From contig OX638370.1 in NCBI GenBank assembly GCA_951812925.1, forward strand, positions 37,947,948-38,011,947: 64,000 bases of DNA, given 5' to 3'. Shown piece by piece: positions 2,372 to 60,725 of this stretch. Source of the stretch: Calliopum simillimum (taxonomy: Eukaryota; Arthropoda; Insecta; Diptera; Lauxaniidae). Under the pieces are notes generated by a model. It had not been told where the DNA came from. It worked only from the letters and a program-made list of their open reading frames with translations, and did not search any database. Numbering within the stretch: the stretch's first letter is position 1; the number at the start of each line of letters is the position of its first letter. A program made the translations under genes and the position numbers.

Positions 2372-5300
2372 CCCCGATCAAAAAAACTTGTCAAGTTCTT
2401 GTCATTCCCGATCAAAAAAAGTATATCAAAAATATATCAAAATGATATCCAAAATTTGTCAGTGACATACAAGATTTTGATAAAAAAAGGATATCACAGT
2501 GATATACGGAATGTAACGCTTTTTGTATATCACCATGATATCAAGAAAAGATATCAAAATGATATCAAGAAAAGATATCAAAATGATATCAAAAAAGATA
2601 TCAAAATGATATCAAAAAAAGATATCAAAATGATATCAAAAAAAGATATCAAAATGATATCAAAAAAAGATATCAAAATGATATCAAAAAAAGATATCAA
2701 AATGATATACAATTTTTGTACATTTCTGATACAAAAATGACAACCAATTTTGGGTCCGATAACTAAAGTGACGCAGATTATGGCCAAATTTTACAATATT
2801 GTGGTTAATCGTCAACTACTTTTTTTTTTTGTACTCAATTATATTTTTCATATACTTTTTCACTAATTTCATGGCAAAACTCACTTCTTACTAAAAATGG
2901 CTGCTCGTCCGTTTTCCATACTTTTAGTTTTCCCAACCACAGGCCTCATGCAGCAACTGAATGGAGCGTCTGTTCTTTTGCACTCAATAATATTTTTGTG
3001 CTTTTCACTAATTTCATTAGAAAATTAACTTATTCACTAAAATTGGCTGCGCGTTCGTCTTCTATAATTATCTTTATATAAAATTCACAAACGAAAACGT
3101 AAAATTTGACATATCAGCAGCTGATAAATTTTTGATATCATTTTGATATACATTTCTGATACAAAATTGACATGTCATTCAATGATATCAAAAATATATC
3201 AAAATGATATACAAAAAATGGATATCAGCCGCTGACAAATTTTTGATATCATTTTGATATACATTTCTGATACAAAATTGACATGTCATTCAATGATATC
3301 AAAAATATATCAAAATGATATACAAAAAATGGATATCAGCGGCTGATACATTTTTGATATCATTTTGATATACATTTCTGATACAATGACAAGAACTTGA
3401 CAACCCGATCAAAAAAAGTATATCAAAAATATATCAAAATGATATCCAAAATTTGTCAGTGACATACGAGATTTTGATAAAAAAAGGATATCACAGTGAT
3501 ATACGGAATGTAACGCTTTTTGTATATCACCATGATATCAAAAAAAGATATCAAAATGATATCAAAAAAAGATATCAAAATGATATCAAAAAAAGATATC
3601 AAAATGATATACAATTTTTGTACATTTCTGATACAAAAATGACAACCAATTTTGGGTCCGATAACTAAAGTGACGCAGATTATGGCCAAATTTTACAATA
3701 TTGTGGTTAATCGTCGTCAACTAGTTTTTTTTTTTTGTACTCAATTATATTTTTCATATGCTTTTTCACTAATTTCATGGCAAAACTCACTTCTTACCAA
3801 AATTGGCTGCTCGTCCGTTTTCCATACTTTTAGTTTTCCCAACCACAGGCCGCATGCAGCAACTGAATGGAGTGTCGGTTCTTTTGCACTCAATTATATT
3901 TTTGTGCTTTTCACTAATTTCATTAGAAAATTAACTTATTCACTAAAATTGGCTGCGCGTTCGTCTTCTATAATTATCTTTAAATAAAATTCACAAACGA
4001 AAACGTAAAATTTGACATATCAGCAGCTGATAAATTTTTGATATCATTTTGATATACATTTCTGATACAAAATTGATATCAGCGGCTGATAAATTTTTGA
4101 TATCATTTTGATATACATTTCTGATACAAAATTGACATATTATTCAATGATATCAAAAATATATCAAAATGATATACAAAAAATGGATATCAGCCGCTGA
4201 CAAATTTTTGATATCATTTTGATATACATTTCTGATACAAAATTGACATGTCATTCAATGATATCAAAAATATATCAAAATGATATACAAAAAATGGATA
4301 TCAGCCGCTGACAAATTTTTGATATCATTTTGATATACATTTCTGATACAAAATTGACATGTCATTCAATGATATCAAAAATATATCAAAATGATAAACA
4401 AAAAATGGATATCAGCGGCTGATACATTTTTGATATCATTTTGATATACATTTCTGATACAATGACAAGAACTTGACAAGTTTTTTTGATCGGGAAGTTT
4501 TTTTGATCGGGTTGTATCAGAAATGTATATCAAAATGATATCAAAAATTTGTCAGCGGCTGATATCCATTTTTTGTATATCATTTTGATATATTTTTGAT
4601 ATCATTGAATAATATGTCAATTTTGTATCAGAAATGTATATCAAAATGATATCAAAAATTTGTCAGCGGCTGATATCCATTTTTTGTATATCATTTTGAT
4701 ATATTTTTGATATCATTGAATGACATGTCAATTTTGTATCAGAAATGTATATCAAAATGATATCAAAAATTTATCAGCTGCTGATATGTCAAATTTTACG
4801 TTTTCGTTTGTGGATTCTATGGAAAGATAACTTTAGAAGACAAACGCGCAGTCCATTTTAGTGTAAAAGAAGTGAATTTTCTACTGAAATTAGTGAAAAG
4901 CACACAAATATAATTGAGTGCAAAAAAACCGACACTCCCTTCAGTTGTTGTATGCAGCATGTGGTTGGGAAAACAAAAGCTATGGAAAGCGGACGCGCAG
5001 CCGATTTTAGTAAGTGAATTTTCTCATGAAATAAGTGAAATAAGCACAAACATATGATTGAGTTTAAAAAACCGGCACTTCATTCATTTGCTGCATGCGG
5101 GCAATTTCTAAAAACTTGTTGCCGACGATCAAATACAATATTGCAAAATTTCAAAGACTCAAAGTTGGTTATGTCAATTTTGTATCAGAAATGAATATCA
5201 AAATGATATACAAATTTTGTATATCATTGATATACAATTTTTGTATATCATTGATATACAATTTTTGTATATCATTTTGATATCTTTTATTGATATCATT

Positions 5301-5676
5301 TTGATATCTTTTTTTGGTATCATTTTGATATCTTTTTTTGATATCATTTTGATATATTTTTTTGATATCATTTTGATATCTTTTTTTGATATCATTTTGA
5401 TATCTTTTTTTGATATCATGGTGTTATACGAAAAGCGTTACATTCCGTATATCACTGTGATATCCTTTTTTTGTCAAAATTATGTATTTTTGATATCATT
5501 TTGATATCTTTTTTTGATATCATTTTGATATCTTTTTTTGATATTATGGTGATATACAAAAAGCGTTACATTCCGTATATCACTGTGATATCCTTTTTTT
5601 ATCAAAATTTTGTATGTCACTGACAAATTTTTGATATCATTTTGATATATTTTTGATATACTTTTTTTGATCGGGG
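2372..5676. mobile_element. GATATC-rich composite inverted-repeat element
   Basis: An insertion of about 3.3 kb relative to the paralogous site at 39264, where copy B reads straight through (GTTG/CAATAAAAC). It begins CCCCGATCAAAAAAA and ends TTTTTTTGATCGGGG. Borders fit either no target duplication or a 2-bp GC duplication with CCCGATC termini. Inside are three related units of about 1-1.2 kb: 2407-3403 and 3404-4494 in direct orientation, 4512-5676 inverted. Each has CCCGATC at both ends; one end is preceded by TGACAAGAACTTGACAAG. Each carries a 24-bp tandem array of the palindrome pair GATATCAAAATGATATC, with different copy numbers (about 7, 3-4 and 5-6). No transposase is visible, so it is non-autonomous. 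Superfamily is unknown; foldback-like is a structural description only. Confidence 0.85.
2530..2712. repeat. 24-bp tandem array in GATATC element, unit 1
   Basis: Period 24, seen at 2645, 2669 and 2693, with each unit holding two GATATC palindromes separated by AAAAT. Because the period is divisible by three, both strands stay open and give false repetitive ORFs (KKDIKMIS and IILISFFD). Equivalent arrays lie at about 3536-3612 and, inverted, at about 5280-5420. Confidence 0.9.
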
Positions 5677-8178
5677 CAATAAAACTTTATACTAGCTTTT
5701 TCTGTTCACAAATAAACTGGCGTCAAAAACACAACCGTTCAACAATCGGATCTGATCATTTTAGTCGATTTTTTGGCTTAATAATTATTATAATATAAGA
5801 TTATCGACTGTTAAAATTTTTTTTAAATCTAGTTTGGTTTGTTAAACTTTTAATTCTACAAAAGAAAATGTAATCAAAAATGCTTGATCGGATTTACTTT
5901 CAGAGAAATAGCCATAGAAAGATCGGGATATAGCTTTTATGAAAACCGGTATAAGTTCGGAACCCCTGGTTGGATTTCATTAATATTGGTGTATATGACT
6001 ACAAAATAGTTTTAAATCTGGGTGAAAACTTTCGAGATATGGCGTATTTTCAAAAATATTTTCATGTTTTATTTTTAGTTTCACAGCACTATTTTTCAAA
6101 AAAATGTATTATTAACCTATAGCTTCCTTTCAATTGATTTGCAATTTATACCTCATTTCTTTCATTAGCACATTTTTTATAGGAAAACAAAAAAGTTAAC
6201 CAAAGAAATTTTCATGAACAACAACGGAAAATGGTATTTGGCTAGTAAACTAGGTGTTGGGTATATTATAGACTGATCCGCGGCCGAATGCTGCCGCGAA
6301 GCCGGTATTAGATTTTAGGTGTTTTAAATCCAGAGTTTTGGCCGCAGGCCACCCACTTACCCCTACTTCTATGCAAAATTACTGTGGGAAAAAAAATCTG
6401 TCCAAATTTCAGAAAAGTCATAATATCTCGAAAATTTCGAGTTCGATTTCAAAAAATCTAGAATTACTATTGTAGCTTATTATATTACCTTTCATGTGAC
6501 ACCCACTTTCTGAAAATCAATCGAGCAGTTTTTGTTTATAAGACATTTTTGGAAAAATAGTGCTTTAAAACCAAGAAACCTGGAAAAATTTTTCGAAATT
6601 TCTAACATCTCGAAAACCATGACTCGGGACATAAAACTTTTGCACACCGATTTTGTAGCCATGACAACGATTTTATTAAATTTCATCCAGGGGTTCTCAA
6701 CTTATACCGGTTTTTATAAAAGATATATCCCGATATTCCGATGGCTATATCTCCGAAAGTAGGTTTGACCAGAACTTTTTGTTGTTGTTGTTGTGTTAAT
6801 TAAAGTAGATATTTTGATTTTTTTTCTCCCCATTTTTTGACTTTGGCGGCCATGTTAGTATGAAAAAGGTCCTATTAACATACCCTTTCATAATTTTTTT
6901 TTTTTACATCCATATCAAAACGATCAAGATTTTGTGGATGGAGTACGATTTGGTTATAAACTGCCATGAGTAATATGCCACTATTGTGGAAAAAATTACA
7001 ATAAAAACTAGAAAAAAATATTTTTTTTTTTTTTTTTGTATAGTTTACTCTCAAAAAAAAATTTTGAATTGAGTTTCCCAAAATACGTCATTTCGATTTT
7101 TCCTGTTGAAAAAGCTACAAGTGTAAATTACAAGTCCACGAAATATTGCAGTGGGTCTGCCAGGGGTTCTCCACACTTTTTCATTACATTTTTTGCAATT
7201 GAAAACTCTTATTAAATAAAAATTTCAAACTCAAAAAAATTGTACTGAAAAAATGCGGTGGATGCCACATTTTATTGTTTTTCTGGAGAACCACTAGCAC
7301 GCTTGGTGGACTTGTAAGTTACACTTGTAGCTTTTTGTACAATATAAATAAAAAAATCGAAGGTATATTTTGGGAAACTCAATTTAAAAATTTTTTTTAG
7401 TGTAAACTGTATAGCAAAAAAAAAAAATATTTTTGCTAGATTTCATTTTAAAGCTTGTTTCAAGGCAAATCATTTGACACCTTAAATTTAAGAATTGGAC
7501 AGATGCAACTAAAGTTATAGCTTCTCAGAAAAAAACTAACCTAAAAATTTCAAAGCTCCATCCATATCTCCGGCATTTTTTTAAATTTTGAAAAAATATT
7601 TGGTAGTTATTTTTTGCACAATACCACTATATTTATAGGCGAATCGAATTCCATCAAAAAATTTCTTCATCGTTTTGACATGGTTTGCACCTCATACAAA
7701 ATCAAAAAATTAATTTCAAAAATTTCCTCGTGTTAACTATGAAATATCAAACACTAATACCTTATTCTCACTTGCCTGGTTAACCAGCCTAAAATCAGAA
7801 AATCTTGATAATCAAAGAACCACGTTCACACTTTTCAATGACACTTTTTTGGCGTTTACCAAATCACGACACTATTTTCACTTTTTTTCAAATATATTTT
7901 TATATATTTCGTTATTTAAATTCTTTTTTAAAATACATTTTTGATTTTAGCTTTACTTTGCTTTTATTAAAAATGTTTTATTTGCTTACATTTGTCAAAA
8001 GAAAAGGAAATTTCCTAATTTCCCTGGGATTTTTTGAATTTGGAGATGCCAACTTTTTGGGTTAAATGATCTAATTGTTTAAAAACTTGCTAATCTTTTC
8101 CATACAAATCGAACAGCTTTTTATATGGAAAACTATCCTGGTTAGTGCTTAATCATCATTCATATTGCGAATAGCTTA
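5677..8178. repeat. Duplicated block copy A, second part, with internal inverted repeat
   Basis: Matches 39265-40396 and 40763-42137. Around 5900-5975 the sequence (AGCCATAGAAAGATCGGGAT ... ACCGGTATAAGTTCGGAACC) recurs inverted at about 6690-6760, so a smaller foldback-like element of roughly 860 bp lies inside the block. A diverged relative of the same text occurs at about 43600-43760, before the first ECHDC3-like gene. The 7000-7450 stretch has another weak inverted symmetry centred near 7220. The short ORF at 7805-8065 is conserved in copy B (41764-42024) only because the DNA is; it matches no family I know. Confidence 0.7.
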
Positions 8179-12131: not shown

Positions 12132-15111
12132 CAGCGTTGCCATAATGACGATTTTATCGTCATTTTGACGATTTTTCGACCTCAATGACGATCAGACGTT
12201 TTTTTTCTCAAAATGACGATTTATTGGCAATAATTGAGATTTTTTGCAAAAAATGACGTTTTTTCTAATTCTTTCAATTATTGAAAACAATTTTAAGTTT
12301 TTCGATTAGCAAACTTACTGGCTTGTCGTACTTTTTAATCTATTTGGCAACACAGTATCAATAAACACATTTTTTTGACATATGAAGATTCTAGATGACT
12401 AATGAATATTAAAAATTCTTATTCTATCAATGGAATTGACGCGTGCTTAACACAATTTTGACATTTCTCATATGTAAAAAAGTGACGACGTTCAGATAAA
12501 TTTTGCAAAATCGAAACTTTGCACGTGGGTAAACATAATTATAATTCTAAAATCTGAAAATAACTTTGATAATGGAAGAAAATGAAGGTAAGGTAGTAAG
12601 ATATTGATTGCTCTTTATATTGATAACCTTTATTTCTTCCAGACAGAAGCAGTAACTCTAATGAAGACAACGTTGTCCTGATCGAAGATGACACGGTAGA
12701 AAAAAATGTAATTTTATTTTCTTATATTCGGTGGCACATTGTATTCATGTATATGCGTACTTATTTCAGAAAAAAAAAGCCAAAAAGCGAAAAATATGCG
12801 AAACGTGGGTCAAAACTTTTGGTAAATGGCTAGAAAAAAAGAAAACCTTGGCTGGCAACGAGGAACTTTTTTGCAAAGTATGCAACTCATTTTTAAAAGT
12901 AAGTTCTGGAAAATCTGATTTAATTAGACATACAACCACCAAAAAGCACAAAGAGAAGTCGAGCTGCCTATCAGGTGGTCACATACCTATAGATATGCAC
13001 TTGAAACGAAGCACTGGAGAAGTTAGTCATGTGCAAAATTTGGAGCTGCAGTTGAGTGCTTTTGTTGCAGAGCACAACTTACCCTTCTCTTGCATGGACC
13101 ACTTATCGCTATTTCTGAAGACTTCCATTCCGGACTCGAAAATAGCATCAACATTTTCTTGCGGCCGAACAAAAACAACCGCTATAGTGAAAAATGTACT
13201 GGGGCGCACGCAGTTCGAATATTTGTGCAGTTTATTACGCCAGGAAAAATTTTCGCTGTGCATCGACGAGTCAACAGACATATCGAACAAAAAGTCTCTG
13301 TGTTTGGTAGCCCGGGTTACCATAAACTGTCACATAAAAGATTTTTTTTTTGGTTTAATTGAAGTTGAAGATTCCAAAGCCCTATCAATTTACAAATGTA
13401 TTGTAGAATACTTTGAAAAAAATAATATTAATTACAAACAGAATTTGATAGGATTTGCTGCGGACGGGGCAAATGCCATGACAGGCGTATGTCATTCCGT
13501 GGCAAGTCTGTTGAAGGACGATGTTCCAAATTTATTTATTATGAAATGTGTTTGCCACTCCATCGCACTATGTTCTTCAAATGCCTGTCTCATGCTACCA
13601 TCCGGAGTAGAATCTTTAGTCCGTGATATATATAACTATATATCGAATAGCCCTAAGCGAAATGCTCAATTGATGAAAATTTTGTCACTTTTAGAATACA
13701 AGCCAAAAAAAATGCTGCATCCTGCGCAAACCAGATGGCTGTCTTTAGAATCAGTGGTGAATCGTGTACTTGAATTATATGAACCACTAAAAATATATTT
13801 TTCATTTGCGTATAACATTGACAAAATAGATAGCGCAAAAACTATATATTGTAATTTGAATGAAACAAACGAACTCTATTTGTGCTTCTTAAAATATATT
13901 CTTCATATAATAAATAATATTAATAAAATGTTTCAAAGTTCAAACTCACAAATACAAAATATGTATGAAGAGATGCTACGGTTGTATCTCAAAATTTTAG
14001 ATAATTTTATAGATCCCATGTACTTAAATGCAAATCATTTTCATAAACTCGACTTTGAAAACAAGGAAAAGTTTTTAAATTACAAGGACGTATACCTTGG
14101 GATATACTTTCAAGAAAAATTATCCAATTGTAAACTTTCTTCCAGTGAATTAAAAGAAATCACCAACAACTGTATTCAATTTTATGTTGTATTTTGCAAA
14201 GGAATAAAAAAACGATTTGATTTCGACAATTCAGTCCTGAAAGAACTCTCTTTTATGAATCCCAAAAATATTATTAAAAAAAGCGTATCATCAATACGAA
14301 GCGTAATACAAAAGTTTCCAAACTTAATTGATCCGACTGATGCACAGAAAATTGATGATGAGTTTAGGGAGCTGCGTCATTTAAAATTTTCTGAACATTT
14401 TGAGAATTTAAACAATCTAAGTTGCGAGGAATTTTGGAGTACTATTTCCAAAATTACCCGTGGAGGTACGGAATATGCTTTCCATACTCTTTGCAAGTTT
14501 GTTTCAAATTTAATGAGCCTCCCTAGTTCATCAGCAAACGTGGAACGAATATTTTCGAAAGTTAATATGAACAAAAATAAATATAGAAACAGGCTACATA
14601 ATCCAACCCTAGAGGGTATTTTATTCACGCAAGATTATTTATTACACAATAATTGTTCCTGCTATAATTTAAAAATTGATTCTAACGTACTAAAAAACTT
14701 CAAACCGCAACAGTATTTTTCTAAAGACAACCAAATTTTATAAAATCAATGGCATAATGCCAATTTTATGAAACTCGCTTTTCTTTTTACATAAGTATGT
14801 ATGCATGTATGCATATTTAAGTACTTAATATGATCTCATGTAATCGATCTCATATACTTAAAATATGAATTGTTTTTGTTTTTTTATGTTAAAAACTTGT
14901 AACTTGCATATAAAATATGAATTGTTTTAGTTCTTTTTATGTTAACACTTGTAATTTTTATATTTTTGTTTGGTTCCTAATAAAAATGGTAAAAAAACGT
15001 GTGACGATTTTTTGACGATTTATTTATTTTAAAATGACGATTTTTTGGTAGAAATTACGATTTTTTTTAGGCCTTTTGACGATTTTCTTCCAAAACCTTC
15101 TGGCAACGCTG
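12132..15111 (+). mobile_element. Complete hAT-superfamily transposon, 2980 bp
   Basis: Termini are CAGCGTTGCCA at the left and TGGCAACGCTG at the right, perfect 11-bp inverted repeats. Immediately outside them is a perfect 8-bp direct duplication GTTGGTGG (12124-12131 and 15112-15119), the hAT signature. Subterminal regions on both ends are packed with the heptamer TGACGAT (about 12150-12260 and 15000-15090), probable transposase binding sites. It encodes one intact transposase (12572-14743). Intact ORF, perfect duplication and matched ends together indicate a recent insertion that may still be active; activity itself is an inference. Confidence 0.96.
12572..14743 (+). CDS. hAT transposase with BED-type zinc finger (3 exons, 680 aa)
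   Basis: The large open frame starts at 12731 only by reading through an intron. The better model is exon 1 12572-12587 (MEENE), exon 2 12643-12695 and exon 3 12770-14743, with GT-AG borders and phases 1 and 0 that join in frame. After an acidic start and a Lys/Arg-rich nuclear-localisation-like stretch (about residues 24-31) comes a BED-like finger (C-x2-C ... H-x5-H, about 58-84). The RNase H-like core follows: CIDEST with a catalytic Asp near 189, GFAADGANAM with Asp near 255, MKCVCHSIAL (the hAT CxxH), and RWLSLESVV. The C-terminal hAT dimerisation motif SSSANVERIFSKV is near 609. No frameshift or stop. A polyadenylation signal AATAAA lies at 14979-14984. Length is normal for hAT. It would cut and paste the element 12132-15111. 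Confidence 0.95.
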
Positions 15112-22235: not shown

Positions 22236-22369
22236 CTTGCGTTTAGTCCCAATGGGGAATGGAGCGCATCAATAGCGCTTCTGAAGCGCTCTAAAGCAGC
22301 AGTGAAGCGCATCTCTCTCGTTGCCAAAAGCGCTGAAATTAACATTGGCATGTCATTGGAACGAAGCGC

Positions 22370-22510
22370 TTCGCTCTCGCTACCAGATATGCTCTTTGGA
22401 TGCGCATCGCTCTCGCATCCAGAAATGCTGTTTGGATGCGCATCGCTCTCGCTACCAGAAATGCTCTTTGGATGCGCATCGCTCTCGCATTTAGAAACGC
22501 TCTTTAGATG
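22370..22510. repeat. 36-bp minisatellite, block 1 (about 4 units)
   Basis: Consensus unit has GCTACCAGAAATGCTCTT then TGGATGCGCATCGCTCTC. Successive units alternate TACC and AT(C/T)C/T before AGAAA, a two-unit (72-bp) higher order. The period is a multiple of three, so open frames on both strands are artefacts. Confidence 0.9.
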
Positions 22511-22686
22511 CTTTTTGGATGACAATAAAAATATTTAAAAAATTAATTTTTAACTGAAATTTTACGTCTTTCGTCAACAAAGACACATCAGACTATTATT
22601 TTTTTTTTGATGTAATTATAATTATTTTTATTTTACTAAATTAATTCTAATTGAAAAATTGCAAGTTGAAAACTTTTGTGTTAGGT

Positions 22687-22827: not shown

Positions 22828-23100
22828 AAAGCGCATCGTTCTCGCTACCAGAAATGCTCTTTGGATGCGCATCGTTCTCGCTACCAGAAATGCTCTTTGG
22901 ATGCGCATCGCTCTCGCATCCAGAAATGCTCTTTGGATGCGCATCGCTCTCGCTACCAGAAATGCTCTTTGGATGCGCATCGGTCTCGCATCCAGAAATG
23001 CTCTTTGGATGCGCATCGCTCTCGCTACCAGAAATGCTCTTTGGATGCGCATCGCTCTCGCATTCAGAAATGCTCTTTGGATGCGCTTCGCTCTCGCTAC
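22828..23100. repeat. 36-bp minisatellite, block 2 (7 exact-period units)
   Basis: GAAATGCTCT recurs at 22851, 22887, 22923, 22959, 22995, 23031 and 23067, an exact 36-bp period. The four bases before it run TACC, TACC, ATCC, TACC, ATCC, TACC, ATTC, giving the same alternating 72-bp higher-order pattern as block 1. Confidence 0.95.
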
Positions 23101-23733
23101 CTATAGCGCAGAAAATATGCGCATACAAATCAGCTCTTTGGATACGAGAAGGACGCGCATCGCTATTGCATCTTGGGGATGCGCATCGAAATTTTCTGTT
23201 GGGGTGGATGGTGTCGCTGTTGTTGTCATTAGATTTATGTTGTTGGTGTTGAAAATTGAATTATACCTTATATGCGATTTGTGTCATAGTTTTATACTTA
23301 TATTCCAGATGAAATAAACATATATGTACATGGTACAAATGTGACAAAATCAAAGTCAATCAACAATTTACATACTAAATAGGTGTGGAGTCCTTTAATA
23401 AAATTTCAGTTTGAACTTTTTTCACTAACAACAATAATAACAGTTTAAGCCATAAATACATATTTGGTGAAAATTATTTTAGCAAAAATATTTGTTACTT
23501 TTCAGTATATAAAATATAAAATCGTGTACATAAATATATCAAAGAACAACAATAGTTTATATAATCATTTAACATCAATTAAATACACTATGTACTATGA
23601 TTTGCAATACTTTTTTTTATGTTACAAAAGTTGTGGATCTTTATAACTTAAATTATATATGTATATATACTAAAAATGCAAATTTTTATACAATTACATA
23701 CACACACAATTGGAAATGATGTTTTGATGTATA

Positions 23734-29700: not shown

Positions 29701-32700
29701 TAATACGGTGAAATGATGATCTAGGCACATTAAAAGCACTGGTGCGCTTCCGAATTGAAAGGTTCGGATCGTCGCGAACAGACTGGTTACAATCTTCACG
29801 TTTCTTGTCGTTCTTGATGATTTTGGTCGCCTCTTTCTCAAACTGCTTTACCAATTTTCGAATGAGAAGTATGCTTGGCAGTTGGCTCCGCGCTGCAGTT
29901 GCCGAATCCCGTTTTTGTAAAACTATCGCACACACGACGCGCGGTCTGCCTCTGAGAAACGCTCTATAGTGATTAAATTCCAAAAACCCAGGTTACCGAT
30001 TGACATACCCGCGCGCCTCGGTTTTTTATTTTCCATACATAGTAAATATCCACGGTAAAGGCGTGGCATGGGATAGGAAAATAAAAATTTATCAAGGTGT
30101 TGTCTATAATTAGTAAAGACACCTTTTTGAAGTACAATAAATTTGTTCGGCTCATTAAGAGACGAATTTTATACAACGGTACATACATGTATGTGTGTAT
30201 GTATTCTGCTTTAACTCCTAGGAGGAGCATATTGCCAATATCAAACGTTTCCATTTGTTGCGATCCCTTGCGATAACTTTGATCTCTTGTCACGACTTTC
30301 TCGACTCTTGTATTTCCTTTTCCAGCGACCTTTTCCAGTTGGTTTTGGGTCTACCACGTGCTCAACTGCCTTGTGGATTCCACTCAAGAGCCTGGCGACA
30401 AACTTCGCTGTGCGGTTTCCGGAGAGTGTGACCAATCCATCTTCATTTGCGCAGCTTGACCTCGTTTGCTATAGCCCTTTGATTGCATATTTGATGTAGC
30501 TCGGCATTTGTTATAGTGCGAGGCCACCAAACCTTAAGTACACGCCTTAAGCATTTGTTGACGAATACTTGCAGCTTGTTCATTAGTTGTTCAGTAACAA
30601 GCCATGTTTCATGCTTTTAGTCTTGGATACGTTGATTTTTAGGCCGGCATTTTATGATTCCAAGACGAGATCTTCAATTTTGCTTTGCATATCTGAGTGT
30701 TTGGACGATAAGAAGCAAATGTCGTCAGCGTAGTCGCGATCTTCTAGATGTTTGGTAAAGTTCCATTGGATACCCTTTTTGGCCTTGTTAAGAGCTTTAT
30801 CTAGGATATCGTCAAGAACGATAAGGAAGAGAGATGGTGATAGTAAACACCCCTGCCGTACGCCTCAATCAGTGGTGAATGTCGGTGACAGCAACCCGCT
30901 GTGTAACACACTGCATTTAAAGCCTTCATATTGTGCACGCACTAAGTTTATGGCCTTTGCGACAATACCTCTTCGCTGCAGTGCAATCCAGATGTTTTCT
31001 CGGGAGACACTGTCGAAGGCAGTGCTTTAGTCTACGAAGACAAGTTGAAGCGCAGCACGCCACTCACATGATTGTTCGACAATTATTCTAAGGGTGTTGA
31101 TTTGATCCACGCATGATCGGTTTGGCCGGAATCCTGCTTGTTGCCTTCGGATGGTCGAATCAAGTTTTTCTCTTACCCTGTTTAGAAGCACTTTTGTCAG
31201 TACTTTTGATAGTACTGAGAGCAAAGTTATTCCTCTATAATTTCGGCACTCGCTTAGGTCACTTTTTTTCGGCAATTTGACTAGCATGCCATGCAGCCAA
31301 TCTTCTGGCAAATGCTCTTCGCTCCAGATTTTGGTGGGCAGAGGATGCAGAATTTTAGCTGATGTAATGGGGCATGCTTTTAGCAGTTCAGCTGTTATTT
31401 GATCTATACCGGCGGTCTTGTTGTTTTTCATGCTTTGAATAGCTTTCACTATTTCATCGATTGTAAGCGGTTGTGTTTGTATTCGACTACTACTGAGAGT
31501 CACTGCGGCAGTTGTAGTTGGTGATTCGGGAATGTGGTAGATGTGGGATTCAGTATGTCACAAAAATACTCTTTCCATCTTCTTAGTTGGTCGTCCGCGG
31601 ATGTTACAGATTTCCGTTTTTGTCTTTGATAGGGCGATTCAGTTGGTGTTTTCTGGCAGATAGTCTGCGGGTCATATCGTAAAGCTGCCTGAGATTTTGA
31701 GCATTTGCAGCACTTTCGGCTTCGCTCGCGAGGTCGTTATACATTCTTCTTTTGTCTTGTCTGCACGAACGCCTGACTTCTTTAATGAGGGAATTAAAGA
31801 CCTTTTTGGCGTCGTTCTTTTGCGCTCTAGTTTAAGCGTCATCTATCAGTTTTTTCTTATTGTTGGAGTATATATAAATATTTTTTTTTCCTATTTATTT
31901 TTGTGCTCCAATATCGATCCTACTCAATATCTATATTAATTGCGAAATATGCAATCGACTTTGTTCTTTAAGTTTTTTTTTTTTTTCATTTCTTTTTATC
32001 TTTATTAATATGATAGTAATTTAATTGATTAATTTTTAATGAATCTATAAAGAAAATTCTTTATTTTTTTCTTGTTTTTCACTTAAGAAATTGCAGGTGA
32101 AAAAATTAAAAACTTTATATTCAATTACTTATCAGTTTTAAATTTATTTTTATGTTGAACTGATAATCGAGAGGTTTCAGTTAACAACCAATGCTTGAAA
32201 GCACAATATGAAAATACAAACAATTTAAATACAAATTGATGAAAACATTCTAATTGATTATCGATTGATTTTAAGATTATTCAAGTGTAAGTACGCTTAG
32301 TTTAAATGACTTGTGGGTTAAGTAAAATTATGAATTATAACCTCTTGGAAGGTTGTTTCAAAATTAGATTTTGATCTCACAATAAAGTAAACAAAAATGT
32401 TTAAGATAGTGTTTATAGTTATTTGAAGTTTTTACTGTAGGGGAGATGTGTGTACCTTGGTCCGAGTGTACCTAGGTCCAAGAGTCGGTTGCCACTCAAC
32501 AGTTGCACGTGTACGATAATGTTCTTCTATGGAATTTTCCACTCATACCGGTGACTCATATTAGTAGACTTCAAACCGTCAAGCTGTATGCGTGTATAAA
32601 AAGTGACGGAAAATGTGTTTTTGGTGTGTAAAAGTTAGTTTTTGGAGTAAACTAAGAAACGTTTTGTGAGAAACTTACTTGAAATATTTCAGTTTTAGAA

Positions 32701-36941: not shown

Positions 36942-39900
36942 TTTAAGTGTGCTGATTACGTGAAAAATAGTGAAAAAATTCTATTACGTCACAATTTTCA
37001 GTAATTTAAGTTTTACTCACAATAAGTGCCTTTTTTATATATACAAGACTACCACTCCTACACTACTGAACGTATCAAAACCATATTTGCACCAAATGTT
37101 TTTTTGGTGCTTCAACATATTTATAAGAAAAATGGGTTCGATTGGACAAGGGAGCGTTATACCCCTCATACAAAAATAAAACTCAAAATAATTGGAAATT
37201 TTATTTGAGTTGCTCCTACGCCTATACTAGTAGATATATTGAAACCATATTAACACCATATGAGCCGTTCATTTTGAAAGTGGCCTAAGTCCATTTCGGG
37301 GCAAAAGTAATGCTGTTCGCATTATATGCCGTAATAATCGGTTTTTTGCTCGATACTGTTTTTTAAACATAACGCCATTAATTTCACACAATGTGGTAAA
37401 CTTTCTGCAAAGACAGAATTCAATTTTATTCGGCTCATATAACCGCCTAATACTATGGCAGATTTGTCTTGATAATGGGGGTAATTGAATGAAAGTACGG
37501 TGCGCTTGGTATACAAAGAAAGCAAAAAAAAGGCACATCTACATACTTTACCTGCATTATGAAACTTGATATCTGGATAAATATTATGAGTAGCAACTAT
37601 CTTGAACGTAAGGAGAGCACCAAAAAAATATATTGTGCAAGAATGGTTTAAATATGTTGAGTATTTTAGGCCTGAAATTGAAGAGTACATAAGCATAATA
37701 ATAAGTTTTCAAATGCTGCACAGGCAACAAGGGTACCCCTCTTAAAATTACGAGAGTGATTTCCGATGTATTTTTTGATGCTGAGCCCAAATCTGATTAT
37801 AAAATTGCTCTATCACGCCAAAAATTTGAAAATAACTGTGAAATACACACGATTATTCACTATTTTTGAGGCTATGAAAATTGTAGTATCTCAAAATCCT
37901 GACGTGATGAAAATAAACCAAGTTCAGATTCGTGATTAGAAGGTCCCAACCCACCATAAAAAGCTTGAAAAATCAAGAGAGAAAAAAAAGTGGCAAATTT
38001 GCAGGCCTGTGTATTAATATCAATCACACCGTCAAATTACATACAGAAATCAGGAATGGCTTCTGATTTTTGACGAATTTTGGCAAAGTTTTTGACTGAC
38101 TCAAAGTACACAAAGATTCTGCCTAATTGTATAAATCCATGTCTGTCAGGAGGGACCGAAATAACTACTTTTCTTTTAATTAGTAGTTCCAGTTATGTAG
38201 CTACTTATGGAATCGTAGTACTGGGTGGCAAACGTCTACGCTACGGTAATGAATAGTTCACACTTGAGATGGGCACGGGAATAATTTTTGAAGCTTTATC
38301 CGACACGACACGACACGATGTAAGCACTTAAAAAAAAGCTCGGTTCCTAAACTAACTAAGGACAGCATTTTTTCTAAATTTGTGCTTCTCACCCTTCGTG
38401 TGATTTCAGGGCTCTTACGGGCTTCTAATTTTCGGACTTTTGTGGTAAGGATCGAGCCCGCACGAAATTAAATTTCAAAGCTCGAGCCCGTCGCCGAAGA
38501 GTAAAGGTAATTCATTTCTAGACCCTTTGTACCCTTTATACTGTTATCCGTAAACTGGACTTGTTTCCGTCACCTAAATTGAATCTGCAAACTGATTAGT
38601 TCCACTGTGCAATGCTTCAACTACTTAGTTGCTTTTCTTAACTGATAAGCAACTTATCAGTTTCATGAAATTTTTACGATACTTGCGATTAAATTTTTTT
38701 ATTATTCTAATTCCATGTTTTTTGATAATTCCTATTTTTCATCGAGTAACTTGACGTACTCAATGCACCTTATCTCTTTACTTTTGTTGTTTTTGTTGTT
38801 GCTCAAAAACAAAAAACAAAATCGCTGCTCTTTATTGAATATCTTGTCTTTTTTTTAATTTTATTTAACACTCTCACCTGTTGCAATACTTTATTTACCA
38901 GTGAATTATGTAAATATTTTTTGTACTCTCTTTTAAGCCAGCTTTCGTTGAACTTTACGCCACCTAAGTTGTATATTTCAATTGTTCTTTTTAAACATCT
39001 TTTATCTACTGTTAAATTTAATTATTTACAGTTCTGCGCTATTTTCCTAATATTTTTATTAAATTTTTCTAAATTACACCATTACAAAAACAGGACTTCA
39101 TAAATTAACTAACGAATGAACTGTCACTTTGCTTAAAATCTGTAAACATACCAACTGAAATGTCAAATTTTTGGCTGATTGTAAACATGCGTGAAGTTGG
39201 CTACATTTGTCAAGTGTAGGGCTTCTGTTGTCACTTATCAAAAACGTAATAGATTCGTATGTTGCAATAAAACTTTATACTAGCTTTTTCTGTTCACATA
39301 TAAACTGGCGTCAAAAACACAACCGTTCAACAATCAGATCTGATCATTTTAGTCGATTTTTTGGCTAAATAATTATTATAATATAAGATTATCGACTGTT
39401 AAAATTATTTTTAAACCTTGTTTGGTTTGTTAAACTTTTAATTCTACAAAAGAAAATGTAATCAAAAATGTTTGATCGGATTTACTTTTAGAGATATAGC
39501 CATAGGAAGATCGGGATATAGCTTTTATGAAAACCGGTATAAGTTCGAAACCCCTGGCTGGATTTTATTAATATTGGTGTATATGAAAGGTATTTTAACT
39601 GACTAATAAAATGGTTTTAAGTCTGGGTGAAAACTTTCGAGATATAGCGTATTTTCAAAAATGTTTACATGTTTTTTTTTAGTTTTAAAGCACTATTTTT
39701 CAAAAAAATGTATTATCAACCTATAGTTTCCTTTCAGTTGATTTGCAATTTATACCTCATTTCTTTCATTAGCACATTTTTTATAGGAAAACAAAAAAGT
39801 TAACCAAAGAAATTTTCATGAACAACAACGGAAAATGGAATTTGGCTAGTAAACTAGGTGTTGGGTATATTATAGACTGATCCGCGGTATTAAATTTATA

Positions 39901-42137
39901 GGAGTTTTAAATCCAGAGTTTTGGCCGCAGGCCATCCACTTACCCCTACTCTTATGCAAAATTACTGTGGGAAAAAAAACTCTGTCCAAATTTCAGAAAA
40001 ATCGTAATATCTCGAAAATTTCGAGCCAAATTTCAAAAAAATCTAGAATCACTATTAAATTACCTTATTAAATTACCTTTCATGTGACACCCACTTTTTG
40101 AAAATCAATCGAGCAGTTTTATAAGACATTTTTGGAAAAATAGTGCCTTAAAACCAAGAAACCTGGTAAAATTTTTCCAAATTTCTCATGTCTCGAAAAC
40201 CATGACTCGGGATTTTAAAATTTTTGCACACCGATTTTGTAGCCAGTTAAAATACCTCATGACAACGATTTTATTAAAATTCATCCAGGGGTTCTGAACT
40301 TATACCGGTTTTTATAAAAGATATATCCCGATATTCCGATGGCTATATCACCGAAAGTAGGTTCGACCAGAACTTTTTGTTGTTGTGTTAATTAATTCCT
40401 AGAGCTCTATTTGGACATAACAAATAACAACAACAGTTTTAAAAGTAAAATCGTTCCTTATAAATTTACCGAATGAGAATAATTGACACGTTTTTTTTTT
40501 TTTGATGCGTATACTGGGTGTATTGCTAAAGGTTACGAAGCTTCTGGTAGGTGATAGAAGAGGACTAGACTAATAAAAAATTGCACTTGGTGGGGGGTTT
40601 AAAATGTACCTCTGACGAGTTATGGGGTTAAAACGGATATTCTGACTTAACGTTTTAAAGAAAACATTTCGGTAGCGAAATTTTAGCTAATTGTAAGAGC
40701 TTTCAGTTAGTGTATATGGTTTACAGAGTGTAAAAGAATTTCGCAAAGTTCTGGACCTTTAAAGTAGATATTTTGATTTTTTTCTCCCCATTTTTTGACT
40801 TTGGCGGCCATTTTAGTATGAAAAAGGTCCTATTAACATACCCTTTCATATTTTTTTTTTTTACATCCATATCAAAACGATCAAGATTTTGTGGGTGGAG
40901 TACGATTTGGCTATAAACTGCCATGAGTAATATGCCACTATTGTGGAAAAAATTACAATAAAAACTAGAAAAAAAATTTTTTTTTTTTTTTTTGTATAAT
41001 TTACTCTCAAAAAAAAAATTTTTGAATTGAGTTTCCCAAAATACGTCATTTTGATTTTTCCTGTTGAAAAAGCTACAAATGTAACTTACAAGCCCACGAA
41101 ATATTGCAGTGGGTCTGCCAGTGGTTCTCCACACTTTTCATTACTTTTTTTGCAATTGAAAACTCTTATTAAATAAAAATTTCAAATTCAAAAAAATTGT
41201 ACTGAAAAAATGCAGTTGATGCCACATTTTATTGTTTTTCTGGAGAACCACTAGCACGCTTGGTGGACTTGTAAGTTACACTTGTAGCGTTTTGTACAAT
41301 ATAAATAAAAAAATCGAAGATATTTTTTGGGAAACTTAATTTAAAAATTTTTTTTAGTGTAAACTGTATAGCAAAAAAAAAAAAAATATTTTTGCTAAAT
41401 TTCATTTTAAAGCTTGTTTCAAGGCAAATCATTTGACACCTTAAAATTAAGAATTGGACAGATGCAACTAAAGTTATAGCTTCTCAGAAAAAAACTAAAC
41501 TAAAAATTTCAAAGCTCCATCCATATCTCCGGCATTTTTTTAAATTTTGAAAAAATATTTGGTAGTTATTTTTTGCACAATACCACTATATTTATAGGCG
41601 AATCGAATTCCATCAAAAAATTTCTTCATCGTTTTGACATGGTTTGCACCTCATACAAAATCAAAAAATTAATTTCAAAAATTTCCTCGTGTTAACTATG
41701 AAATATCAAACACTAATACCTTATTCTCACTTGCCTGGTTAACCAGCCTAAAATCAGAAAATCTTGATAATCAAAGAACCACGTTCACACTTTTCAATGA
41801 CACTTTTTTGGCGTTTACCAAATCACGACACTATTTTCACTTTTTTTCAAATATATTTTTATATATTTCGTTATTTAAATTCTTTTTTAAAATACATTTT
41901 TAATTTTAGCTTTACTTTGCTTTTATTAAAAATGTTTTATTTGCTTACATTTGTCAAAAGAAAAGGAAATTTCCTAATTTCCCTGGGATTTTTTGAATTT
42001 GGAGATGCCAATTTTTTGGGTTAAATGATCTAATTGTTTAAAAACTTGCTAATCTTTTCCATACAAATCGAACAGCTTTTTATATAGAAAACTATCCTGG
42101 TCAGTGCTTAATCATCATTCATATTGCGAATAGCTTA
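36942..42137. repeat. Large duplicated block, copy B
   Basis: Same orientation as copy A (14-8178). It lacks the 3.3-kb GATATC element (junction near 39264) and the giant palindrome (junction 42600/42601, in the adjoining element), and has an extra 362-bp segment (40397-40758). The match continues past 42137 through the GGGGAGATGTG element to about 43034. Over long stretches (for example 7740-8170 against 41700-42130) only a few differences per several hundred bases are seen. No genes. Confidence 0.88.
40397..40758. other. 362-bp segment between TTAA sites, absent from copy A
   Basis: Copy A reads GTGTTAATTAAAGTAG at 6793-6808. Copy B has TTAA (40393-40396), 362 bp, then TTAA (40759-40762) and AGTAG. 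This is either a TTAA-targeting insertion in B or a microhomology-mediated deletion in A. The segment ends show no inverted repeat, which favours deletion in A. Confidence 0.6.
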
Positions 42138-59932: not shown

Positions 59933-60725
59933 CCCAATGGGAAATGGAGCGCATCAATAGCGCTTCTGAAGCGCTCTAAAACAGCAGTGAAGCTCATCTC
60001 TCTCGTATCCAAAAGCGCTGAAATTAACATTGGCATGTCATTGGAAGGCAGCGCTTTGTTCTCGCTACCAAAAATGGATACGCATTGCTCTTGTAACCGG
60101 AAATGCTCTTTGGATGCGCATCGCTATCGCATTCAGAAATGATCTTTGGATGCGCATTGCACTCGCATTCAGAAATGCTTTTTGGATGACAATAAAATTA
60201 TTTTAAAAATTAATTTTTAATTGAAATTTTCCGCTTTTCGCCACAAAGAATTATTTTTATTTTACTAAATTAATTATAATTGAAAAATTGCAAGTTGAAA
60301 AACTTTGTGTTTGGTCTGGACAGGAGTTGAACCGAGGACGTCTAGGTTGCTACAACTCTCAAGCAGTGCAAGTCGCTAGACCACTGCTCAATTTTTGCGC
60401 TCTTACGAAGCCGACTTGTTGACTTATTTTGTTTTGTGTGTAAATACGTGACCGAAAACGCTTTGTTCTCGCTACCAGAAATGCTCTTTGAAAGCACTTC
60501 GCTTTCGCTACCAGAAATACTCGTTGGATGCGCTTCGCTCTCGCTACCAGAAATGCTTTTTGGATACTTTTTGGATGACAATAAAAAATATTTTAAAAAA
60601 AATAAAGCTGCCTGTTGCCTAGTTATAGCGCAAAAAATATGCGCATTGACGTCAGCTCTTTAGATGCGAGAAGGAAGCGCATCGCTATTGCATCTTGGGG
60701 ATGCGCATCGAAATTTTCTGTTGGG
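59933..60725. mobile_element. Dispersed repeat with 36-bp minisatellite and tRNA-like segment, copy 2
   Basis: Same ends (CCCAATGGGAAATGGAGCGC and ATCGAAATTTTCTGTTGGG) and same order as 22238-23195, but with fewer, more degenerate minisatellite units (about three at 60465-60560, all TACC type) and a decayed tRNA-like part at about 60310-60405 (GGAGTTGAACC, CCACTGCTCAA). The reduced arrays against copy 1 show strong copy-number change after dispersal. Confidence 0.75.

Follow-up and report, generated by a model that had tools for sequence, protein, structure and literature searches.

The segment between positions 2373 and 5675 of the window, that is, the whole 64,000-nucleotide stretch of Calliopum simillimum DNA analysed here, consists of three nested copies, 1196, 1012 and 1091 bp long, of one non-autonomous inverted-repeat transposon. 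The composite itself is not the element, and its parts are three elements lying one within another and not three tandem units. In all likelihood, the locus records serial insertions of a MITE of ~1 kb with a 14-bp terminal inverted repeat (TIR), CCCGATCAAAAAAA, related to a larger element, and the family would be moved by a Harbinger-type transposase and its nesting guided by its own repeats. The 14-bp end was found by a window search at 2373, 2407 and 3404 on the forward strand, and ending at 4494, 4511 and 5675 on the minus strand; it is absent from the rest of the window, and these six ends make up the three elements. An initial sequence-only reading of this DNA had described three units, two direct and one inverted, bounded by CCCGATC, an arrangement borne out by the six exact ends. 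The locus is composed as follows:

2371–2372, no strand: left copy of the GC target duplication of the outer element (empty paralogue at 39264–39265)
2373–2406, minus strand: C-type end of the outer element, first 34 bp, TIR CCCGATCAAAAAAA + CTTGTCAAGTTCTTGTCATT
2405–2406, no strand: left copy of the TT target duplication made by the middle element in the outer one (60/60 bases restored)
2407–3403, plus strand: middle element, with G-type end, 24-bp array, core and 111-bp array (1012 bp including its last 15 bp at 4497–4511)
2527–2708, plus strand: 24-bp double-GATATC array of the middle element, 7.6 copies (Tandem Repeats Finder)
2767–2813, plus strand: remnant of a PIF/Harbinger-type transposase exon in the core of the middle element (SDADYG..IVVNRRQ, by eye; consensus positions 281–319, by blastn)
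3402–3403, no strand: left copy of the AA target duplication made by the inner element in the middle one (60/60 bases restored)
3404–4494, plus strand: inner element, complete, 1091 bp
4495–4496, no strand: right copy of the AA target duplication
4497–4511, plus strand: C-type end of the middle element, last 15 bp
4512–4513, no strand: right copy of the TT target duplication
4512–5675, minus strand: remainder of the outer element, with 111-bp array, core, 24-bp arrays and G-type end (1196 bp in all)
5676–5677, no strand: right copy of the GC target duplication of the outer element
39264–39265, no strand: paralogous empty site, a single GC in GTTGCAATAA

Both ends of the element carry the 14-bp TIR, which at the G-type end is followed by GTATATC and leads into the 24-bp GATATC array, and at the C-type end is followed by CTTGTCAAG and leads into an array of 111-bp units. 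The 24-bp arrays, detected by Tandem Repeats Finder with scores of 329, 160, 288 and 117, differ in copy number (~7.6, 3.6 and 8.5 + 2.9), as had been noticed before, and the arrays of the 111-bp unit at the opposite end of the element, which had gone unmentioned, reach 2.5, 3.5 and 2.5 copies with the same program. The unlike subterminal regions had also suggested one small element inserted into itself, and nesting with exact empty sites corroborates this view.

When the middle element is removed together with one TT, 60 of 60 bases of an intact C-type end are restored, and removal of the inner element with one AA restores another 60 of 60; alternative duplication lengths of 0, 1 or 3 bp match only 26–44 of the 60 bases at these two inner insertions. 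The sequence-only reading had allowed either no duplication or a 2-bp GC one, and such exact restoration upholds the latter and discards the former. For the outer element, the flanks joined with one GC, TTGTTGCAATAA, equal the paralogue TATGTTGCAATAA at 39264–39265 except for one left-flank base, which supports the empty site proposed in that reading; the left flank of this empty site is 97% identical over 72 bp. The outer element would thus have entered host DNA, the middle one the outer, and the inner one the middle, in three successive cut-and-paste events, and the sequence shows that each of them duplicated 2 bp of its target. A repeat lies in both orientations beside the occupied and the empty sites of the window (5875–6801, 39463–39822 and 40118–40457), and is also present, at ~77–87% identity, inside the 4.4-kb element described below (L076, ~2222–2685).

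That the junction at 39264 might instead be a precise deletion or excision, with the nesting produced by recombination between tandem copies and no insertion at all, is very improbable. Recombination or deletion between copies does occur, since two copies on contig C1 (L036 and L048) join like ends and L036 is without part of its inner copy; however, each of the three joins in the window gives uninterrupted sequence once 2 bp are removed, and the same empty-site logic applies to two other loci, L090 and L093. L036 (C1:50190613-50193296), which like L048 is a family element with two ends of the same type, resembles a head-to-head fusion whose inner copy has lost its last 39 bp.

Other mobile and repeated sequences occupy the rest of the window. 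The 683-aa stop-to-stop frame at 12692–14743 (+) is a hAT-like transposase, with the hAT dimerisation domain PF05699 above cut-off and DUF4371 below it, and a reverse-transcriptase fragment (PF00078) lies at 31027–31557 (-). A 36-bp minisatellite (GCGCATCGCTCTCGCTACCAGAAATGCTCTTTGGAT and variants), open in several frames, is found at 22366–22511, 22831–23101, 60100–60188 and 60459–60565.

A search of the genome for the ends and their flanks had been proposed at the outset. In the assembly (690 Mb, 334 contigs) the exact TIR occurs 534 + 534 times, against 10 + 10 for the same pattern read backwards as a control, so that the ends are not due to chance. From loci drawn among 100 of these places, which all fall within the first 56 Mb of contig C1, 42 TIR-bounded elements were read along with the three of the window, and an exact 2-bp duplication was found at 36 of these 45 (binomial 4e-31, with a chance of 0.083 per site and with the duplicate site L007 counted among the 45). 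Addition of eight later elements and removal of two repeat sites, namely L007, an inverted duplicate of L005, and the middle element of L090, whose flanks are those of the window, gave 40 duplications at 51 distinct sites, where ~8% per site would be expected. Five elements read later and kept outside this count (three in L093, L094 and L097) each show a 2-bp duplication by eye. The duplicated dinucleotides are varied (TT 8, TG 5, AT 5, AC 4, GT 3, TA 3, AA 3, CT 2, GA 2 and GC 2, with CG, AG and CA once each), and 9 strand-folded dinucleotides are represented among the 40. C is over-represented at the bases that immediately flank the duplication (25 of 80 when pooled, p 2e-4), a weak signal noticed after the fact. 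Among the 11 of 51 sites without a 2-bp duplication, L031 and L028 possibly have one of 3 or 4 bp, and L036 and L048 have their two ends of one type. L005 and L007 (C1:3.580 and 3.600 Mb) hold the same element and flanks, inverted and ~19 kb apart, apparently through an inverted duplication.

Thirty-six copies of 681–1243 bp are 0.896–0.988 identical to a 1001-bp consensus and split roughly into a ~0.98 and a ~0.91 class. Nine longer TIR-bounded elements (1.6–8.6 kb) were translated in search of an autonomous copy, and the longest frame among them was 125 aa, none being obviously a transposase. Compared with the 36 short copies, eight of the nine contain stretches of at least 256 bp with no family similarity, which we take to be other inserts, a judgement made from the sequence for some of them only, and L037 consists of family sequence throughout. 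Two scans of viral contigs for the family ends gave no match.

The nesting seen in the window recurs elsewhere, and in one case at the very same position. In L090 (C2:67.033 Mb), an insert lies at exactly the TT used by the middle element of the window and is oriented like it, and both hosts have a GC duplication at unrelated sites. The window combines a host of the 0.91 class with an insert of the 0.98 class, and L090 the reverse (identities of 0.87–0.89 between classes and 0.97–0.98 within them); because host and insert classes are reversed, the two insertions are independent. A second position has probably also been hit twice: in L093 (C2:66.995 Mb), where one host with a TT duplication (by eye) carries two inserts with TT and GT duplications, the first insert shares place and orientation with that of L058, and since these two inserts are only 0.88 identical when compared, their insertions were probably independent. 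For two such coincidences of position and orientation among 9–16 nested events, p ranges from 1e-4 to 0.03 depending on the positions assumed possible, a value not free of selection, the window having been chosen as nested and L090 found through an altered-C-type-end pattern.

Self-insertion is also more frequent than the estimated share of the family in the genome would give. GATATC within 30 bp outside an end was found at 24 ends genome-wide and at none in the control; of their flanks, 16 have a match in family copies, three have none, and the other five are too short to be assigned. With one of the sixteen left out, as it rests on 10 bases (C5:35.15 Mb), they amount to 12 nested events, five of them both-sided (the middle element of the window, L090, L058 and two in L093) and seven with one flank only. 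Three of the short-flank loci were read: L094 proved to be nested, with an AT duplication, and in L011 and L095 family sequence borders one side; adding these three gives 15 events, although L094 and L095 may be one event copied. L011, L036 and L095 are only partly explained. The family was estimated to make up 0.075% of the genome, given its exact ends and an average length of 968 bp over 34 copies, and 0.4 nested events would be expected among ~534 copies on this basis, so that the 12–15 observed are ~30-fold above the exact-end share. If the share were ten times larger, 4 nested events would be expected and the excess would fall to ~3-fold (p 9e-4 for 12 observed). Of 98 ends in the C1 sample, 6 are bordered on the outside by family sequence; for two of them this is a neighbour 18 bp away, and the other four belong to L011, L036 and L058.

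Such an excess might also arise simply because insertion is local or favours AT-rich DNA, without the sequence of the element exerting any attraction. The AT-rich composition of the copies, the weak target preference, the distance of ~35 kb on C2 between the nested loci L093 and L090, as local hopping might give, and the ~3-fold figure obtained with a tenfold share all speak in its favour. We nevertheless consider it unlikely, in view of the 12–15 events found against 0.4 expected from the exact-end share, and of the two recurrent positions, where the paired insertions share their orientation and were independent in one case and probably so in the other. Our preferred reading is that the GATATC/TTGTCA-rich repeats of resident copies attract the transposase, which would probably lead to nesting at preferred positions; the excess and the recurrence are observations, and this cause is our interpretation of them.

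The search for an autonomous relative, also suggested initially, had a mixed outcome: a larger relative with the same ends was found, but its transposase is broken, and no intact mobiliser emerged. This 4,446-bp element (L076 + L083, C1:86857441-86861886) is flanked by CT, and begins with 322 bp and finishes with 264 bp of family sequence. One of its strands carries a multi-exon gene of ~260 aa (gene 1, exons placed by eye), whose best Pfam matches, DUF6615 (E 0.012) and DUF4806 (E 0.022), both lie below the curated cut-offs. In this copy, which is incomplete, the Pfam scan of gene 1 gave no Myb/SANT match, scans of pieces of the element gave neither THAP nor YqaJ, and a protein search with gene 1 in a large database gave nothing at E ≤ 0.001 (647 candidates). 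Thirty genomic stretches match gene 1, two of them its own, and 17 of the 30 have internal stops, some of which may be introns. One match, L097, is a 1,096-bp element flanked by TT, with diverged CCCGATC ends (72–76% identity to the family consensus, 1 and 2 mismatches in its TIRs); since gene 1 is present both there and in the 4.4-kb copy, it recurs in the family. Another gene 1 locus, L096, had no family end within 2 mismatches.

On the strand opposite gene 1, the 4.4-kb element contains a piece, SDADYGEILQNYDPKEFRDRFRLSKEVAWKVL, followed by a stop and further residues. It corresponds to the N-terminal part of a transposase only, is broken by the stop and lies inside an intron of gene 1 on the opposite strand, and may therefore have been captured. 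A 58-residue hybrid of this piece and similar fragments was used as a genome query and gave 62 matches, including open frames of 385–387 aa, and the 387-aa frame of L091 is a PIF/Harbinger transposase (DDE_Tnp_4, PF13359, E 1e-30). The closest full match to the hybrid, L092, is a broken relative (PF13359, E 2e-23), to which the fragment of the 4.4-kb copy and that of L085 are similar in single pairwise comparisons (E 1e-16 and 5e-20). Pfam returned no family for the transposase fragments at E up to 10, and the link to Harbinger comes from such pairwise similarity: both the N-terminal piece of the 4.4-kb copy and the remnant in the small copies resemble DDE_Tnp_4 elements of this genome. Within the core of the small copies, 39 bp match the transposase piece of the 4.4-kb copy at 90%, both being oriented alike with respect to the ends, and longer stretches match L085 and L089 at ~82%. 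The Harbinger exon thus probably belongs to the family as well as gene 1. No intact transposase was found between CCCGATC ends, and convincing inverted ends were not recognised in L085–L089 or L092. L091 (C1:34086800-34091800), the one Harbinger transposon that was read with an intact frame, has a Myb-like ORF on the opposite strand and an apparent TTA duplication (both by eye) and ends unrelated to the family, and open frames like its own lie at C1:56.217, C1:84.543 and C2:76.200 Mb. Three of the loci with the Harbinger N-terminal exon, L086, L087 and L089, have inverted TAGTTAAC(C) repeats, perhaps of another non-autonomous family.

Altogether, the family is a non-autonomous cut-and-paste TIR transposon. 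The foldback-like or rolling-circle-like (Helitron/Helentron) nature first suggested could draw on the internal tandem arrays and the unlike subterminal regions, but Helitrons have neither target duplication nor TIR and Foldback makes a 9-bp duplication, whereas the elements here have short exact TIRs and exact empty sites and, at 40 of 51 sites, duplicate 2 bp. Their 24-bp and 111-bp arrays are tandem repeats of the interior, and a foldback or rolling-circle nature is scarcely credible. Galileo/Foldback elements of Drosophila share with the family the tandem arrays within a TIR element, but not their 7- to 9-bp duplications and long inverted arms. The earlier exclusion of Tc1, piggyBac and hAT holds, since TA accounts for 3 of 40 duplications, piggyBac duplicates TTAA and hAT 8 bp. 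In this way, the target duplications ruled out the Foldback, rolling-circle, Tc1, ISL2EU and Spy readings. IS30 and the P element, which duplicates 8 bp, insert like this family into or near ends of their own kind, with unrelated transposases. Unclassified DNA families with 2-bp duplications, such as those named DNA2-n in Repbase, are likewise non-autonomous with a short TIR; for the present family, a larger relative is described in addition, along with self-insertion in excess of its share. The termini of CACTA/CMC elements read CMCWR, and CCCGA deviates at the W. The 2 bp of the family lie within the 2–4-bp range quoted for CACTA/CMC in the available part of PMC4482050.

PHIS groups are sorted by the length and sequence of their target duplications, given as TWA, AT, none, ANT, CWG and TNA, with ISL2EU duplicating AT within A|AT|T (PMC4482050, available part). 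The available part of PMC10045372 states no or 1–4-bp duplications for PHIS members, so that 2 bp falls within their range of length, and that of PMC9179366 gives 3 bp as the general Harbinger duplication. An unconstrained 2-bp duplication matches none of the six PHIS groups in the available part of PMC4482050. The family is like PIF/Harbinger and Tourist-like MITEs in its piece or remnant of a Harbinger-type transposase, its short TIRs and the predominance of small over large copies among those read, and unlike them in its varied 2-bp instead of 3-bp TWA duplication, in its TIR and in a second gene without Myb/SANT match. ISL2EU shares the 2-bp duplication and a related DDE superfamily, but its duplication is AT within A|AT|T, and here AT makes up 5 of the 40, and Spy, in contrast to this family, makes none and inserts within AAATTT. 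A literature search, judged by title and start of abstract and with the broader lists seen in part, found nothing on a 2-bp Harbinger MITE or on MITE self-insertion.

The mobiliser would most likely be a Harbinger-type transposase that binds to the GATATC/TTGTCA-rich repeats near the ends, makes its cuts at CCC..GGG and, with a stagger of 2 bp, integrates at targets of varied sequence. Mobilisation by a different superfamily, with the Harbinger exon as captured sequence, would account for a varied duplication outside the listed PHIS groups (TWA, AT, none, ANT, CWG and TNA; PMC4482050, available part), for a truncated fragment lying opposite gene 1, and for similar fragments at loci without recognisable CCCGATC ends (L085–L089). 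We regard it as rather improbable, however, because the small copies share with the 4.4-kb copy one exon piece, oriented alike with respect to the ends, and we noticed no further transposase on translating the 4.4-kb copy and nine longer elements. For the Harbinger-type mobiliser, we tentatively entertain, without favouring it, a more specific form: a new PHIS group with an unconstrained 2-bp duplication, a partner gene whose type is unrecognised, perhaps DUF4806-like, in place of Myb/SANT, THAP or YqaJ, and a transposase drawn to its own subterminal repeats, so that copies would insert into copies at fixed position and orientation and build multi-element composites.

If this were true, the unconstrained 2-bp duplication would add a group to PHIS and bear on how changeable the target contacts of the transposase are. 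The locus illustrates that what an assembly shows as a 'composite' repeat can have arisen by serial insertion and nothing more. Moreover, nested loci act as natural insertion assays: the empty sequence of each site is known from other copies, so that they directly reveal how a transposon chooses its targets within DNA of its own kind.
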